In this document: positions 15,967-21,796 of the stretch, one piece after another | Layout of the letters: every line of letters starts with the position of its first letter | How positions within the stretch are numbered: position 1 is the stretch's first letter | NCBI GenBank assembly: GCA_003246755.1 | Contig: QKDC01000148.1 | Coordinates: 1 to 39,720 of the forward strand | Direction of reading: 5' to 3' | Length of the DNA: 39,720 bases | Source of the DNA: Gemmatimonadota bacterium | GTDB taxonomy: Bacteria > Gemmatimonadota > Gemmatimonadetes > Gemmatimonadales > GWC2-71-9 | Notes under the pieces: generated by a model | Seen by the model: the letters and a program-made list of their open reading frames with translations, nothing else | Databases searched by the model: none | Told to the model about the DNA's origin: nothing | Position numbers and translations under genes: made by a program

Positions 15967-17520
15967 ATGTCAAACCGTCCCGGCCGCCAACACCCCGTGG
16001 CGCTCGTCGTTCTCGACGGCTGGGGCCACCGGGTCGAGCGGGAGGGAAATGCGATCGAGATGGGAAACACTCCTGTCTGGCATCGCCTCTGGAATGCCCA
16101 ACCGACGACCCTTCTCGACGCCAGTGGGCTCGCAGTCGGCCTGCCCGAAGGGCAAATGGGGAACAGCGAGGTCGGCCACCTCAACCTCGGTGCCGGCCGT
16201 GTGGTGGCTCAGGACCTGGTGCGAATCTCTCAAAGCATCAAGGACGAGTCATTCTTCGACATCGACTCCTTGGTGACAATGTGTGAACGCGTCCGGGAGA
16301 CCGGTGGAACCCTGCACGTCCTGGGTCTCCTGGGCTACGGCGGGGTCCACGCACTCGATCGGCATGTCCTTGCGGCCGTCGAACTCGGCATCCGACATGG
16401 CGTCCCCCGCATCGCCCTCCACGGCTTCCTCGATGGGAGGGATAGCCCCCCCCTGTCGGGACGCGACGTGCTGGACCAGCTGATCGGGGACCTCACTGGA
16501 CTCGATGGTTCGCGGGTCGTGATCGGATCCCTGATCGGGCGGTACTATGCCATGGACCGCGATCGAAGGTGGGACCGCACTCGACTCGCCTACGACGCTC
16601 TCACCAAAGGGATAGGAAGGCAGGCAACCGACCCGCGGAAGGCACTCGAAGAGGCCTATGCCGCGGGCGAAACGGACGAGTTCGTGAAGCCGATCGTGCT
16701 CACGACCGAGACGGGAGCCGCCAGGGCTCCCATTCGCAAGGGCGACGCGATCTTCTACGTGAATTTCCGCGCCGACCGGATGCGACAAATCGTGGGCGCG
16801 TTGTCGGTTCATGGGTTTGATGGGTTCGTGACCGACCAGCCACTGGTCAGCAATGCGGTCACCATGACACGCTACGATGATCGTTTCGGTCTACCCGTTG
16901 CCTTCGCTCCCTATACCCTATCCCGGATTCTGGCGGAGGTGCTCAGCGAAGCGGATCTCACCCAATTCCGCACGGCAGAAACCGAGAAGTACCCACACGT
17001 GACCTACTTCTTCAACGGCGGGATCGAAACGCCATTCCCGTGCGAGGAGCGCGTCCTGATTCCGTCTCCGAGAGTGGCGACCTACGACCTCGAGCCGGAA
17101 ATGAGTGCGCCCGGTATTACCGATGCGTTTTGTGAGGCACTCGAGCGCGCCGACCACGACTTCCTCTTGTGCAACTACGCCAACGCGGACATGGTTGGCC
17201 ACACCGGGGTCGTGCCGGCCATCCTCAAGGCGGTAGAGACTCTCGATGGCTGTCTCGATCGGGTGGTCCGTGCGGCTCTCGCGTCCGGCACACGGTTATT
17301 GGTGACAGCCGATCACGGCAATTGCGAAGTCATGTTCGACCCGGCGACGGGTGGGCCTCACACGGCGCACACGACCAACCCCGTGCCATTCGTCGCCATC
17401 GGTACCGAGATTCAGTCTCTGCGCAGTGGAGGAGCATTGTGCGACGTGGCACCAACCATCCTTCAACTCATGGGCCTCGAGCCGCCGAGCGAGATGAGCG
17501 GCCGCTCTCTGATGAAATGA
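15967..17520 (+). CDS. gpmI: 2,3-bisphosphoglycerate-independent phosphoglycerate mutase
   Basis: Mn2+-dependent glycolytic mutase interconverting 3- and 2-phosphoglycerate (517 aa, full length). Features: metal ligand D17 in VVLDGWG, the phosphoserine S67 in GQMGNSEVGHLNLG (62-75), DGRDSPP in the mutase domain, FRADRMRQI, and the C-terminal metal site TADHGNCE followed by HTAHTTNPVP. The ATG at 15967 is preceded by GGAGA. It leads a run of seven same-strand genes; its stop overlaps the next start as ATGA. Confidence 0.97.
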   Translation: MSNRPGRQHPVALVVLDGWGHRVEREGNAIEMGNTPVWHRLWNAQPTTLLDASGLAVGLPEGQMGNSEVGHLNLGAGRVVAQDLVRISQSIKDESFFDIDSLVTMCERVRETGGTLHVLGLLGYGGVHALDRHVLAAVELGIRHGVPRIALHGFLDGRDSPPLSGRDVLDQLIGDLTGLDGSRVVIGSLIGRYYAMDRDRRWDRTRLAYDALTKGIGRQATDPRKALEEAYAAGETDEFVKPIVLTTETGAARAPIRKGDAIFYVNFRADRMRQIVGALSVHGFDGFVTDQPLVSNAVTMTRYDDRFGLPVAFAPYTLSRILAEVLSEADLTQFRTAETEKYPHVTYFFNGGIETPFPCEERVLIPSPRVATYDLEPEMSAPGITDAFCEALERADHDFLLCNYANADMVGHTGVVPAILKAVETLDGCLDRVVRAALASGTRLLVTADHGNCEVMFDPATGGPHTAHTTNPVPFVAIGTEIQSLRSGGALCDVAPTILQLMGLEPPSEMSGRSLMK

Positions 17521-18242
17521 ACCCAACGATTCTCCGATCCCTGACCTGCGCCGTCGCCATCCTTGCGGCCATTGGCTCTCCCCCGAACCTCCGTGCCCAG
17601 GTCGGCCACGCGCCAGAGGACTCACCCTATCGGGACATTCAACGCGCCAGTTTCTTCGTTGCCACGCTTGGGACCTTCCGCGGGTCCGGCGGCAAGCTCG
17701 GAGTGGCGCCGCACGACGGTCACACCTACGGGTTGCGGTGGAGCATTCTCGCCAACCGACCCCTCCAGGTCGGGTTTGGAGTGACCTACGGTCGCCTCCA
17801 GCACCTGGTACAGAACCAATCCGTCACGCCGGATATCCGGACCACGGGCCCCGTCGAGACCGAGGTCATCTGGACCGATGTCGCGTTCCAGATCAACCTC
17901 ACGGGAGGCAAGACCTGGCATGGCCTCGCGCCGTATTTCGGAGCGGGACTCGGTCTCGCCTTGACCAGCGAAGCTTCTGACGAGCCCACCGACTTCCGAA
18001 TGGGCAACAAGTTCTACTTCGCTCCCATGGCCGGCACGCGAATTTTTCTGACCTCTCGCTTGCACCTCCAGTTGGAGGGCCGCTACCAGTTCTGGCAAAT
18101 CACCTACCCCGAATCGTTCCGTATCCCCCCATTCGGCGGGAATGGAAACGACGCGGTTCTCCCCGGGGGATCGTTGAAGGAGTGGTCCGTCACACCGTGG
18201 CTCCAGATGGGCCTGGGGTGGGCAGTATCCCTGCCGTTCTAA
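17517..18242 (+). CDS. Predicted outer-membrane beta-barrel protein
   Basis: Exported 241-aa protein with a signal peptide (about 1-27, ending LRAQ). The remainder is built of alternating hydrophobic strands with aromatic ends and ends in a terminal Phe (AVSLPF), the pattern of small outer-membrane barrels. No specific family is recognised and no ligand can be named. The ATG overlaps the gpmI stop, and the QueD-like gene starts six bases after it, so it is embedded in the operon although its link to glycolysis or Moco synthesis is unclear. Confidence 0.78.
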   Translation: MNPTILRSLTCAVAILAAIGSPPNLRAQVGHAPEDSPYRDIQRASFFVATLGTFRGSGGKLGVAPHDGHTYGLRWSILANRPLQVGFGVTYGRLQHLVQNQSVTPDIRTTGPVETEVIWTDVAFQINLTGGKTWHGLAPYFGAGLGLALTSEASDEPTDFRMGNKFYFAPMAGTRIFLTSRLHLQLEGRYQFWQITYPESFRIPPFGGNGNDAVLPGGSLKEWSVTPWLQMGLGWAVSLPF

Positions 18243-18248
18243 ACCCTC

Positions 18249-18662
18249 ATGACCCTCTCGTTGACGCGTTCGGTCTCCTTCACCGCCCGGCACCGGCTCT
18301 TCGATGAGCGCCTGACGGCGGCCGAGAACCGGATCCGATTCGGGGAGACCGTTGACGATCACGCGCACACGTACACCGTGAGCGTCACACTCGCCGGGGA
18401 ACCCGATCCGGTCACGGGGGAACTTCTGGACCTCGGGAAGCTCGACCGGCTGCTCACCGACCGGGTCGTTCAGCCACTCGACGGCGCAAGCCTCAACGAG
18501 GCAGTACCCGTCTTCAGCAGCGGGGGGAAGCTCGCCACCTGCGAAGCCCTCGCGGCTTGGCTGTTCGACGACCTCATCACTCTTCTTCCCCCCAACCTCC
18601 GCCTCGAACGCGTTCGCGTCGCCGAGGACGCGACACTCCATGCCGACTGTACCGGGACCTGA
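18249..18662 (+). CDS. QueD/PTPS-fold protein lacking catalytic Cys and His
   Basis: Member of the 6-pyruvoyl-tetrahydropterin synthase / 6-carboxytetrahydropterin synthase fold (137 aa). The three zinc-ligand histidines are kept: H15 in FTARHRL and H38, H40 in DDHAHTY. The catalytic Cys four residues before the first of these is Thr34, and the LDH motif that carries the catalytic His is LDG (D78-G79). The pterin-binding Glu near 126 and TCE (PTSE-like) are kept. So it should bind zinc and perhaps a pterin but is unlikely to do standard QueD chemistry. It lies directly before fdhD, mobA, mobB and moeA, suggesting a role with molybdopterin, which is inference. Confidence 0.85.
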   Translation: MTLSLTRSVSFTARHRLFDERLTAAENRIRFGETVDDHAHTYTVSVTLAGEPDPVTGELLDLGKLDRLLTDRVVQPLDGASLNEAVPVFSSGGKLATCEALAAWLFDDLITLLPPNLRLERVRVAEDATLHADCTGT

Positions 18663-18699
18663 CCCCTCTCCGAACCTTCCCGCCAAAAGGGGGGGGCGG

Positions 18700-19413
18700 A
18701 TGTCGGAGGAAGCCGTGGTGGAGGAAATACCGGTGTGGCTCGAAGTGAATGGGGTACCCGCCGTCACCTGGATGTGCACCCCGTCACTCCTCGAGGAACT
18801 CGCCGTTGGATGGCTCTCGGGTGAGGGGTACATCACCTCGGTTGATGACGTGCGCCTTCGCCCGTGTGGAACCGACATGGGGTTCTGGGCGACGATCGAC
18901 GCCGAACGGGTTGACGCCGTCCGACGGGAAAACCGCCGGCCGGTACTCGCCTCGGGGTGTGGGGCGGTTCCCACCTTTCTGGCCGATCCGGCAACCCAAA
19001 TCCCCGAAGCACCGAGAGGGCCACCCCCTGAACCGGAGGCCTTGCGACGACTCTTCAAAGTGCTGTTCGGCCTGGGAGAAAGGTATCGCGAAACCGGAGG
19101 GATCCACGCCGCGGCCCTGACCGATGGGAGTGAGCTGCTCGCGCACGCGGAGGACATCGGTCGCCACAACGCCGTGGACAAAGTGGTTGGCATTGCCACC
19201 CTCTCCCGGACGGAGTTGGCGGGACGGGGACTCCTCGTCACCGGACGAATCTCCGCCGAACTCGCGTTCAAGGCCGCGAGGGCTGGAATTGCCTGGGTCG
19301 CCACTCCGTCGGTGCCCTCCACGCTGGCGGTCGAGATCGCGCGGCGGGCGGGGATGGTGCTGGTGGGGCGCGCGGTCAGTGGACAACCCCGCCATCATGG
19401 GGTCGGGCGTTAA
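18700..19413 (+). CDS. fdhD: FdhD, sulfur carrier for formate dehydrogenase
   Basis: Transfers sulfur to the molybdenum cofactor of formate dehydrogenase before insertion. The 237-aa protein has the typical GWLSGEGYI segment (37-45), the cysteine loop ASGCGAV with Cys87, EDIGRHNAVDKV and the GRISAELAFKAARAGI block. The loop carries one Cys where E. coli FdhD has CxxC; single-Cys loops may occur in other members. The ATG at 18700 follows a run of G that can act as ribosome-binding site; an upstream ATG in the previous gene is less likely. No formate dehydrogenase gene is in the window. Its TAA stop shares one base with mobA. Confidence 0.93.
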   Translation: MSEEAVVEEIPVWLEVNGVPAVTWMCTPSLLEELAVGWLSGEGYITSVDDVRLRPCGTDMGFWATIDAERVDAVRRENRRPVLASGCGAVPTFLADPATQIPEAPRGPPPEPEALRRLFKVLFGLGERYRETGGIHAAALTDGSELLAHAEDIGRHNAVDKVVGIATLSRTELAGRGLLVTGRISAELAFKAARAGIAWVATPSVPSTLAVEIARRAGMVLVGRAVSGQPRHHGVGR

Positions 19414-20009
19414 TGGGGCCGGTGCAGGGGGCCATTCTCGCCGGAGGGCATGCCACCAGATTCGCCGGGAAACCCAAAGGGCTGGAATGTGTCGGTGGTG
19501 AACGGATCCTCGACCTGGTGGCTGAAGTACTCAAGGTCGGTCTTGGGGTCGACCCGATTCTGGTTGCCAATGTTCCGGAGGCCGCGACGTGGCGCTCCGA
19601 CCTTCGCGTCGTTCCCGACCTGACACCCGGACTGGGGGCGCTCGGCGGTCTCTACACGGCAGTGGCCGTGGCCCCGGCGCCGGTGGTCTGCGTGGCCTGG
19701 GATATGCCTTTCGTGACGAGTGCTCTGGTTCGTCGCCTGGCTGAGGGACTCGAGCATTCGGATGTATTCCTTCCAGCCAGTGGGAACAGGCGGGGAGTGG
19801 AGCCGCTGTGTGCAGCCTACGGCCCGGCGTGTCGTGGGGCGATGGAGCGTGCCATTGAAGAGGGGGATGGCCGCGCAATTGGCTTCCATCGCCACGTGCG
19901 GGTGGGTATCCTATCAGAGGCGGACGTCTCGACTTTGGGCGATGCCGGCAAGCTATTCTTCAATGTCAACACCGAGCACGATCTCACACGTGCGCAGGAG
20001 CTGATCTGA
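19413..20009 (+). CDS. mobA: Molybdenum cofactor guanylyltransferase
   Basis: Adds GMP to molybdopterin to form the guanine dinucleotide cofactor. At 198 aa it is of normal length with the nucleotide-binding signature LAGGHATRFAGKPKG (9-23), GLGALGGLYTA in the middle, the metal-binding AWDMPFV, and the NVNTEHDL ending. The position between fdhD and mobB fits. It starts at the ATG that overlaps the fdhD stop by one base and ends three bases before mobB. Family relatives that use CTP (MocA) are less likely because this sits with mobB. Confidence 0.92.
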   Translation: MGPVQGAILAGGHATRFAGKPKGLECVGGERILDLVAEVLKVGLGVDPILVANVPEAATWRSDLRVVPDLTPGLGALGGLYTAVAVAPAPVVCVAWDMPFVTSALVRRLAEGLEHSDVFLPASGNRRGVEPLCAAYGPACRGAMERAIEEGDGRAIGFHRHVRVGILSEADVSTLGDAGKLFFNVNTEHDLTRAQELI

Positions 20010-20012
20010 TCC

Positions 20013-20531
20013 ATGCGTCTCGTATCCATCGTCGGGCAGAAAAACTCCGGGAAGACCACCCTGCTCATTGCCCTCGCTCGGGAGTTCAAGAGACAGGGTC
20101 GGACGGTGGCCACCATCAAGCATGCGACCCACCCGGCGGTCTTTGACACGAAGGGGACAGACAGTCAGCGGCACTTCGACGAGGGAAATGCGATCAAGAC
20201 ACTGATCGCCGCCCCGGAGCTTCGAGTGCTGTTCGAACGCACTCCCGACGATACGGATCCCGTGACCCTGGCTACGACCTACTTGCAGGGCGCGGACATC
20301 GTTCTCATCGAGGGCTTTCGCAAAGCACAACTGCCAAAGGTCGAGATTTCCCGGACCGCGATTGGTCTGCCGCCCTACTACGATCCCGCGCTCCCGAACG
20401 CTGAGGAATGGCTCGCGGTGGTCACCGACGACCCGATGTTCCAGGCCGGCTGCCGCGTCCTGCGGTTCCAGGACACCATGTGGCTCCCGGTCCTGGCCTC
20501 GCTCGCGCTGGAGTATGGAAAGGAAGTGTAG
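20013..20531 (+). CDS. mobB: MobB, GTP-binding molybdopterin-guanine dinucleotide adaptor
   Basis: Small P-loop GTPase (172 aa) that helps MobA or delivers cofactor to apo-enzymes. The Walker A sequence GQKNSGKTT is at 8-16, TIKHATH at 33-39 with a DTKGTDSQRH stretch, and IEGFRKAQLPKVEI is the family signature near 97-110. Three bases separate it from mobA. Its 3' end overlaps the reading frame of moeA. Confidence 0.93.
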   Translation: MRLVSIVGQKNSGKTTLLIALAREFKRQGRTVATIKHATHPAVFDTKGTDSQRHFDEGNAIKTLIAAPELRVLFERTPDDTDPVTLATTYLQGADIVLIEGFRKAQLPKVEISRTAIGLPPYYDPALPNAEEWLAVVTDDPMFQAGCRVLRFQDTMWLPVLASLALEYGKEV

Positions 20532-21796
20532 CCATAGCCCTTACCGCGGCCGACGCCACTCGTCGGATTCTCGCCGAACTCAAGCGCCAACCTCCGCTTC
20601 GCGTCCCGCTCCATGATGCCCTCGGTTCCGTACTCGCCGAGGAAGTGATCAGCCCCATCAACATCCCTGCCCAAACCAACTCGGCCATGGATGGATACGC
20701 CGTCCGGGGAAAGGACGTACGCGGCGCGACTGCCGAGGTGCCCTGCGTGCTCGAAGTGATCGAGACACTCCCGGCTGGGCGGTTTCCCACTCGGGGGCTG
20801 GGGCCCGGAGAGTGTGCCAGAATCTTCACCGGCGCACCCCTGCCCGAGGGGGCCGACACCGTGATCCGACAGGAGGATACCGATCTCGGTCGTGAGCGCG
20901 TCACGATCGTCACCGACCGAGACCTGGGATCGAACGTCCGGCATGCCGGTGAGGATATTCAGCGCGGAAGGCGTGTGTTCACGCCCGGAACCGAACTCGG
21001 ACCGGCTCAGTTGGGTGTCCTCGCGTCCATGGCGGTGTCACACCCGGTGGTATTTCGGCGTCCGCGGGTGGGTATTCTCGGGAGTGGTGATGAAATCGTC
21101 GAATTGGATCGACCCGACGATATCCTGAGCGGTCGCAAGGTGGCCAGCTCCAATTCGTACACCTTGAGCGCTCTGACGCGCCTCGCCGGTGGCGTCCCCA
21201 TCCCGCTCGGCATCGCCGCAGACACCCGTGACAGTCTCCGAGAACACTTCGCCAGGGCCCAGGACTGTGACCTCCTGGTGACCAGCGCCGGAGTCAGCGT
21301 GGGCGAGCATGACCACCTGCGGGACGTGGTCGCGGAAGTGGGAGGCGCGGAGGCCATCCGGTTTTGGAAACTCCGGATGCGACCGGGCGCTCCCGTGGGT
21401 TTCGGAATGATCGGGGTCATGCCATGGCTTGGCCTTCCGGGCAACCCGGTGAGCGCCATGGTCACCTTCGAACTCTTCGTCCGGCCGGCGATTCGTTGGA
21501 TGGCTGGGTTCGATGCACCGTTCCGGCGCTGCGTGCCGGTGGTGACGGGAGAACCGATCAAGGTCTCTGCCGCGCTCCAGCATTTTCTCAGGGCCCGCAT
21601 CACCGACGAGGGAGATCGCCGAGTCGCTCGGCTCACGGGGCCCCAGGGGTCGGGGATTCTCACGTCGATGGTCCAGGCGAACGGCCTCCTCATCGTCCCG
21701 GAGGGGCAGCGAGAAACACCGAAGGGCGCCATCCTGAGCGCCCTCCTCTTCGACGATCCGATCCACCAGACGGAGCCCGGGTTTGGCGGGGGCTAG
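20483..21796 (+). CDS. moeA: Molybdopterin molybdenumtransferase
   Basis: Inserts molybdate into adenylated molybdopterin. Visible motifs are NSAMDGYAV near the N-terminus, FTGAPLPEGADTVIRQED, VGILGSGDEI, TSAGVSVGEHDHL and GLPGNPVSAMVTFELFVRP. Homology begins about 20 residues after the GTG at 20483, at LTAADATRRIL, and the GTG lies 49 bases inside mobB with no Shine-Dalgarno. An ATA codon at 20534 is seven bases after GGAAAGGAAG and would give a more typical N-terminus, so the true start is uncertain. An in-frame ATG at 20408 is too deep in mobB. The stop is shared with the convergent gene through CTAG. Confidence 0.93.
   Translation, partial: APGPGLARAGVWKGSVAIALTAADATRRILAELKRQPPLRVPLHDALGSVLAEEVISPINIPAQTNSAMDGYAVRGKDVRGATAEVPCVLEVIETLPAGRFPTRGLGPGECARIFTGAPLPEGADTVIRQEDTDLGRERVTIVTDRDLGSNVRHAGEDIQRGRRVFTPGTELGPAQLGVLASMAVSHPVVFRRPRVGILGSGDEIVELDRPDDILSGRKVASSNSYTLSALTRLAGGVPIPLGIAADTRDSLREHFARAQDCDLLVTSAGVSVGEHDHLRDVVAEVGGAEAIRFWKLRMRPGAPVGFGMIGVMPWLGLPGNPVSAMVTFELFVRPAIRWMAGFDAPFRRCVPVVTGEPIKVSAALQHFLRARITDEGDRRVARLTGPQGSGILTSMVQANGLLIVPEGQRETPKGAILSALLFDDPIHQTEPGFGGG
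20517..20526 (+). promoter_or_regulatory. Ribosome-binding site candidate for moeA
   Basis: GGAAAGGAAG at the very end of mobB, seven bases before an ATA codon at the expected moeA N-terminus and with no ATG, GTG or TTG in the moeA frame in reach. If used, moeA starts with a rare AUA; otherwise the site is coincidental. Confidence 0.35.

Follow-up and report, generated by a model that had tools for sequence, protein, structure and literature searches.

A 6-pyruvoyl-tetrahydropterin synthase homologue without the catalytic Cys and His in a late-Moco operon of Gemmatimonadota

The published classification of 6-pyruvoyl-tetrahydropterin synthase (PTPS) proteins comprises class I (QueD), class II (biopterin), class III (folate), and classes IV, V, and VI; a Moco-linked class is absent from it (PMC5041015), and no report of a Moco-linked PTPS was found in the open-licence literature searched. 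In this family, the catalytic Cys acts as a base taking a proton from the substrate, and a Plasmodium PTPS carrying Leu in place of the nucleophile gives no detectable product (PMC2229834). PTPS-III of Plasmodium and bacteria differs naturally at this Cys (PMC2229834), which is replaced by Glu with catalysis kept. Proteins are believed to bind Moco and its intermediates at all times; few bacterial carriers have been identified, with only a single prokaryotic carrier of Moco on record, and mutants affected in Moco distribution are not known (PMC9571131). In plants, Moco-binding proteins have the Mo insertase as an interaction partner (PMC9571131). The protein analyzed herein is a concrete candidate for a role in protecting molybdopterin and Moco in bacteria and passing them between enzymes.

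The window, i.e., the whole stretch of DNA analyzed in this study (39,720 nucleotides; contig QKDC01000148.1), belongs to an order of Gemmatimonadota that consists of soil and water bacteria. The PTPS gene and its neighbours in the window are the following.

15967–17520, plus strand: iPGM (gpmI), left flank; PF01676 and PF06415; kept in most loci, present in 84
17511–18242, plus strand: barrel-like outer-membrane protein; PF09411, 23.6 bits against a cut-off of 23; ends 6 bp 5' of the PTPS start
18249–18662, plus strand: PTPS/T-fold protein lacking the catalytic Cys and His; PF01242, 72.2 bits; AlphaFold2 pLDDT 96.4; Foldseek TM 0.90–0.91 to human and rat PTPS
18640–19413, plus strand: fdhD; PF02634, 180.6 bits; a further candidate ATG is at 18700; the more upstream one lies within the 3' end of the PTPS gene
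19413–20009, plus strand: mobA-like guanylyltransferase (NTP transferase); PF12804, 87.9 bits; start shares one base with the fdhD stop
20013–20531, plus strand: mobB; PF03205, 100.2 bits; TIGR00176 above cut-off
20408–21796, plus strand: moeA, Mo insertase (open reading frame; homology from about 20546); PF03453, 151.6 bits; PF00994, 86.9 bits; PF03454, 50.2 bits

Thus, fdhD, the mobA-like gene, mobB, and moeA are located directly 3' of the PTPS gene on the same strand, in frames that overlap or nearly touch; this gene order, already given in a preliminary description of the locus, is borne out by the Pfam matches. The Rfam scan of the window gave no match.

The PTPS gene is a complete, open reading frame encoding 137 aa. 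Its product has a single Pfam match, PF01242 (PTPS), covering residues 5–134 with an E-value of 4.6e-20 and exceeding the profile cut-off of 22.4 bits. Together with the TM of 0.90 to 3i2b and the three zinc-binding His, this match places the protein in the PTPS superfamily (T-fold); it is a whole PTPS-type T-fold and no fragment. The AlphaFold2 model, based on 95 aligned sequences, has a pTM of 0.89 (the pLDDT above is a mean), and its top Foldseek matches, human and rat PTPS, have an rmsd of 1.6–1.8, against a TM of 0.78 for QueD. The closest solved relatives by sequence are also human PTPS (E 4e-18) and rat PTPS (1e-17), with E. coli QueD at 2e-4, and the score with the QueD equivalog model TIGR03367 (NCBIfam) is 36.5 bits against a cut-off of 89.25. 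The term QueD-fold, under which the protein was first described, is therefore correct for the superfamily and wrong for the nearest member, which is 6-pyruvoyl-tetrahydropterin synthase. E. coli QueD was accordingly dropped as a reference in favor of PTPS-II. PTPS proteins encoded in Moco operons are prone to being mislabelled as QueD or PTPS.

The residues of the active site are encoded as follows.

18291–18293, plus strand: His15, zinc ligand; kept in 64/64 orthologues with loss, 33/33 intact ones, and 14/14 canonical proteins; invariant in alignment A1
18348–18350, plus strand: Thr34 (ACC), read from the sequence, where the catalytic Cys is expected (human Cys43)
18360–18368, plus strand: His38-Ala39-His40, of which His38 and His40 are zinc ligands; invariant in 97 orthologues
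18480–18485, plus strand: Asp78-Gly79, read from the sequence; Asp present, Gly79 (GGC, 18483–18485) instead of the catalytic His
18540–18545, plus strand: Cys98-Glu99 of the T-x-E pterin-site motif; Glu99 in 97/97, Cys98 in 39/39 of the T-C-E clade, Gly in 24/24 of the second clade
18624–18626, plus strand: Glu126 (position of human Glu134); 97/97 orthologues

Both substituted codons had been correctly identified in the preliminary description; in the numbering of human PTPS, the lost residues are Cys43 and His90. With PTPS-II (human and rat PTS), the protein has in common the fold, the length, the three zinc His, and the two pterin-site Glu, but the CxxxxxHGH motif and the Asp-His pair of the triad are replaced by Thr34, a two-residue deletion, HAH, and Gly79, and late-Moco genes are found in place of the folE/sepiapterin reductase linkage (in this genome, folE is linked to another PTPS gene, L001). 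With QueD (PTPS-I), it shares the superfamily, the zinc site, and the late Glu, whereas the CxxxHGH motif and the His of the LDH motif are absent and no que genes are nearby. Compared with PTPS-III, Cys has been replaced not by Glu but by Thr, Ala, Leu, or Val in this clade, with His lost as well, and VDDHAH is found at the site of the ExxHGH motif. The PTPS fold of SCO6650 (PDB 3d7j), a PTPS homologue of Streptomyces coelicolor, was also matched by Foldseek. SCO6650 has a pterin-like pocket but is not known to possess the catalytic triad, PTPS activity, or zinc; the clade of the window protein, in contrast, has kept all zinc ligands without exception, and its gene is located in a Moco operon.

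Protein and family searches covered the 102 genomes of the window's family as well as its order, and the neighbourhoods of the matches were then retrieved. In total, 97 orthologues were aligned, all belonging to the window's order; alignment A1 contains 95 of them. A single scan by genome contigs gave one true orthologue, L004. Both Cys and His are absent in 64 of the 97 orthologues and both are present in the other 33, with a single loss in none (0/97). In the 64 degenerate proteins, the Cys position is occupied by Ala (25), Leu (18), Thr (13), or Val (2) or is deleted (6), and the His position is occupied by Gly (62), Gln (1), or Asp (1). The triad Asp is kept in 35 of the 64. All 97 orthologues have each of the three zinc-binding His as well as Glu99 and Glu126; retention of H15, H38, H40, and the late Glu, noted previously for the window protein, thus holds, and the pterin-site Glu99 is retained too. 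Judged by the alignment, the loss pattern is beyond chance, as both losses recur across 64 orthologues, all of which retain the zinc ligands and the Glu residues. The degenerate set consists of a T-C-E clade (39 proteins, including that of the window), a T-G-E clade (24 proteins), and the single protein L039 from another family.

The reading frames of the orthologues are open, with no internal stops. The dN/dS values calculated by YN00 were 0.06–0.16 in close degenerate pairs versus 0.12 in one intact pair, the range being that of the computable close pairs, as several further pairs gave no estimate. These values indicate that the degenerate proteins are maintained by purifying selection. A pseudogene was ruled out by the low dN/dS, the invariant residues, and the confident fold.

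Unusual active sites were also observed elsewhere. The f4 homologue L172 (433–909, plus strand) has kept Cys, has Arg at the position of the catalytic His, and carries T-C-E, a state midway between intact and disarmed. A QueD-like protein of Comamonadaceae, L005 (7998–8369, plus strand), encoded next to a queE-like gene, has Ser-Arg-Arg-Ile-His-Gly-His without the usual Cys; its late Glu is absent and its LDH motif is retained.

Three changes were obtained by parsimony on the PTPS tree, and likewise on a tree built from the adjacent MoeA proteins. When this MoeA tree was subjected to the AU test, the two large f1 clades together were not rejected (p 0.517), and a single clade of all degenerate loci was rejected once L039 was included (p 0.00076), by which a single origin of the loss is ruled out on this tree. 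On the PTPS tree alone, neither was rejected (p 0.71 for the two f1 clades together and 0.244). The operon of L039 has the gene order of its own family (dacB). This gene order and the rejection on the MoeA tree support the independent loss of the catalytic residues at least two times; three losses are not claimed. In an extended PTPS tree, the degenerate copies of family f5 group with the window's clade; this grouping is unsafe because of long branches and only 145 columns and is not read as transfer.

A late-Moco gene (fdhD, mobA, mobB, or moeA) on the same strand was found downstream of the PTPS gene in 96 of the 97 orthologues: all 64 degenerate ones and 32 of the 33 intact ones, the lone exception being located at a contig end. 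The 5' neighbour varies, being either the barrel gene or modC; modC of a modB-modC pair was found in 36 loci. Part of the synteny may be inertia, since iPGM, a housekeeping gene, is also within the conserved gene order. A barrel-like frame resembling that at 17511–18242 was also observed immediately 5' of the PTPS gene in L085, L048, L134, and L149.

Several loci lack mobA and fdhD in the interval from the PTPS gene to moeA, and fdhD was not detected in five genomes in which the PTPS gene adjoins moeA (G034, G108, G111, G114, and G115). The constant partner is thus moeA, and fdhD was ruled out as a general functional partner. The Moco link of the preliminary description is conserved across the order, but not with fdhD as a constant partner. 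A tie of the Moco context to the loss of the residues does not hold: intact Cys, Asp, and His in 33 orthologues at the same operon position indicate that linkage to Moco genes preceded the loss and is independent of it.

In at least 13 relatives, this operon is present but lacks the PTPS gene. These genomes have moeA, and an unfiltered HMM search for a diverged PTPS hidden in these operons found none; the PTPS gene is thus accessory, and Moco synthesis itself does not depend on it. Operons that are otherwise equal but carry the gene intact, disarmed, or not at all provide built-in controls. Orthologues in families f1–f3 are always in Moco operons, whereas related copies in f4–f6 are away from Moco genes. 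The latter include intact copies in other orders of the class (L171 and L173–L175) and the degenerate f5 copies L184–L187, which have Cys changed to Gln and His changed to Gly or Asp, keep the zinc site, and have no Moco neighbours. In L184–L186, the next gene is divergent and large (721–735 aa), encoding an ADP-forming acyl-CoA ligase in L186, the one tested. In genomes with non-Moco copies, moeA is on another contig, was not found (G196), or is 1.5 Mb off. The f5 copies show that this paralogue can be disarmed outside the Moco operon as well; similar substitutions without Moco genes, which had been named beforehand as evidence against a Moco-related role, were thus found in part (Cys to Gln, His to Gly). 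Inspection by eye of the molybdoenzyme content (MoCoBD_1, Molybdopterin, and Oxidored_molyb) of 102 genomes revealed no evident difference between those that have the gene and those that lack it.

Three PTPS genes were found in the window's genome: the window copy and the catalytically intact L001 and L002. A normal QueD elsewhere in the genome, proposed earlier as a check, thus has its counterpart in these two copies. L001 encodes a PTPS with Cys, Asp, and His and adjoins folE and a short-chain dehydrogenase gene, a tetrahydrobiopterin-like gene set (coordinates of this Gemmatimonadota cluster of PTPS, folE, and short-chain dehydrogenase: 1495–2073, 927–1541, and 235–930, all on the minus strand). 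L002 (1450–1971, plus strand) is QueD-like with the motif CERLHGH, the signature of the PTPS-I/III hybrid type for queuosine and folate (PMC5041015). FolB was not found in the window's genome, and, in agreement with this and with the signature, L002 may supply both the queuosine and the folate pathways. With intact BH4-type and QueD-like copies in the same genome, canonical activity of the window protein is not needed. Such activity, QueD or PTPS, also appears very unlikely, since Cys and His are absent, Cys acts as the base in this family, and Leu, which abolishes the Plasmodium product, is found at this position in 18 of the 64 degenerate proteins; the absence of QueD chemistry predicted in the preliminary description is in line with this.

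The simplest reading of these sequences would be a pterin-binding protein without side-chain chemistry. Starting from the fold, the residue losses and retentions, the operon linkage, the purifying selection, and the intact paralogues, all established computationally, we tentatively propose, with somewhat less than even confidence, a non-catalytic pterin- or molybdopterin-binding accessory of Mo insertion that arose from a third PTPS paralogue. This paralogue would have been fixed in a late-Moco operon (modBC - PTPS - fdhD - mobA - mobB - moeA) in the ancestor of the order, with at least two later losses of the triad Cys and His and retention of the zinc site and both pterin-pocket Glu. The protein would still bind zinc and a pterin but no longer process the pterin side chain. 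A non-nucleophilic residue for Cys and Gly for His would remove the groups that attack the 6-side chain and widen the pocket, which would suit a bulkier, labile pterin. As the neighbours MoeA, MobA, and FdhD act on molybdopterin, the likeliest ligand would be molybdopterin, Moco, or a precursor, and the role may be that of a binding and hand-over or protection factor near the MoeA step, at or after Mo insertion. Of the binding role suggested previously, the pterin part fits the retained residues, whereas molybdopterin as the ligand stays inference. A similar role, binding and passing on Moco beside the Mo insertase, is that of the Moco carrier and binding proteins MCP and MoBP (PMC9571131), but their fold appears unrelated: the PDB matches with E≤0.001 comprise PTPS homologues and related T-fold proteins, with no MCP among the matches listed. 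The locus probably represents a new role in a known fold family and not a new kind of system. The stronger proposal of a dedicated bacterial molybdopterin/Moco-binding pseudoenzyme working with MoeA, i.e., a pterin enzyme recruited and at least twice disarmed by the same replacements (Cys lost, His to Gly), is to be regarded as unlikely.

Against the accessory reading stand the operons without PTPS, the f5 copies away from Moco genes, the possible gene-order inertia, and the absence of a molybdoenzyme pattern; additionally, intact orthologues in the same slot point to an original role that was enzymatic or had no connection with the loss. A pseudoenzyme of ordinary pterin metabolism, which would form mixed oligomers with the intact BH4-type or QueD/folate-type PTPS copies or regulate them and would owe its Moco position to co-regulation or gene-order inertia, is rather doubtful. 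The PTPS catalytic triad is reportedly intersubunit (Burgisser 1995, cited in PMC2229834), so mixed oligomers could modulate activity, and two intact copies in the genome, f5 homologues without Moco neighbours, and operons lacking the gene would agree with such a protein. However, the late-Moco linkage persists in 96/97 loci although the 5' neighbour changes, no folE or que linkage was seen in the Moco-operon clade, and intact orthologues occupy the same operon slot.

Invariant zinc ligands and Glu residues would also be expected of an enzyme with new zinc-dependent pterin chemistry and other catalytic residues, possibly Cys98 in the T-C-E clade, where it is fixed (39/39); moreover, a single change at the Cys position of the Plasmodium PTPS alters the product (PMC2229834). 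We hold this improbable, as the second clade has Gly at the Cys98 position (24/24), no conserved new nucleophile is common to both clades, and the triad Asp drifts (35/64), as expected with catalysis gone. The graded series in the same operon, from intact through residues lost to gene absent, could be taken for a decaying relic that lost catalysis first and, in several lineages, the gene later; such decay is quite unlikely in view of the low dN/dS, stop-free frames, invariant zinc and Glu residues, and confident fold. PTPS, CPH4-synthase, or folate-bypass (PTPS-III) activity retained through substitute residues has very little probability: the fold, zinc, and pterin Glu are kept, and some PTPS may have to provide a folate bypass where FolB was not found, but the site (T-V-D-D-H-A-H) has neither Cys nor Glu at the PTPS-III position, Leu at this position abolishes Plasmodium PTPS activity, and the CERLHGH hybrid L002 can serve folate (PMC5041015).

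Several of the genomes (G124:C1:1994063-1995334, G013:C87, G117:C10, and others) encode molybdopterin oxidoreductases of the formate dehydrogenase type whose genes contain one in-frame TGA, probably for selenocysteine. In several cases, these genes share a contig with an fdhD of a higher-scoring type.
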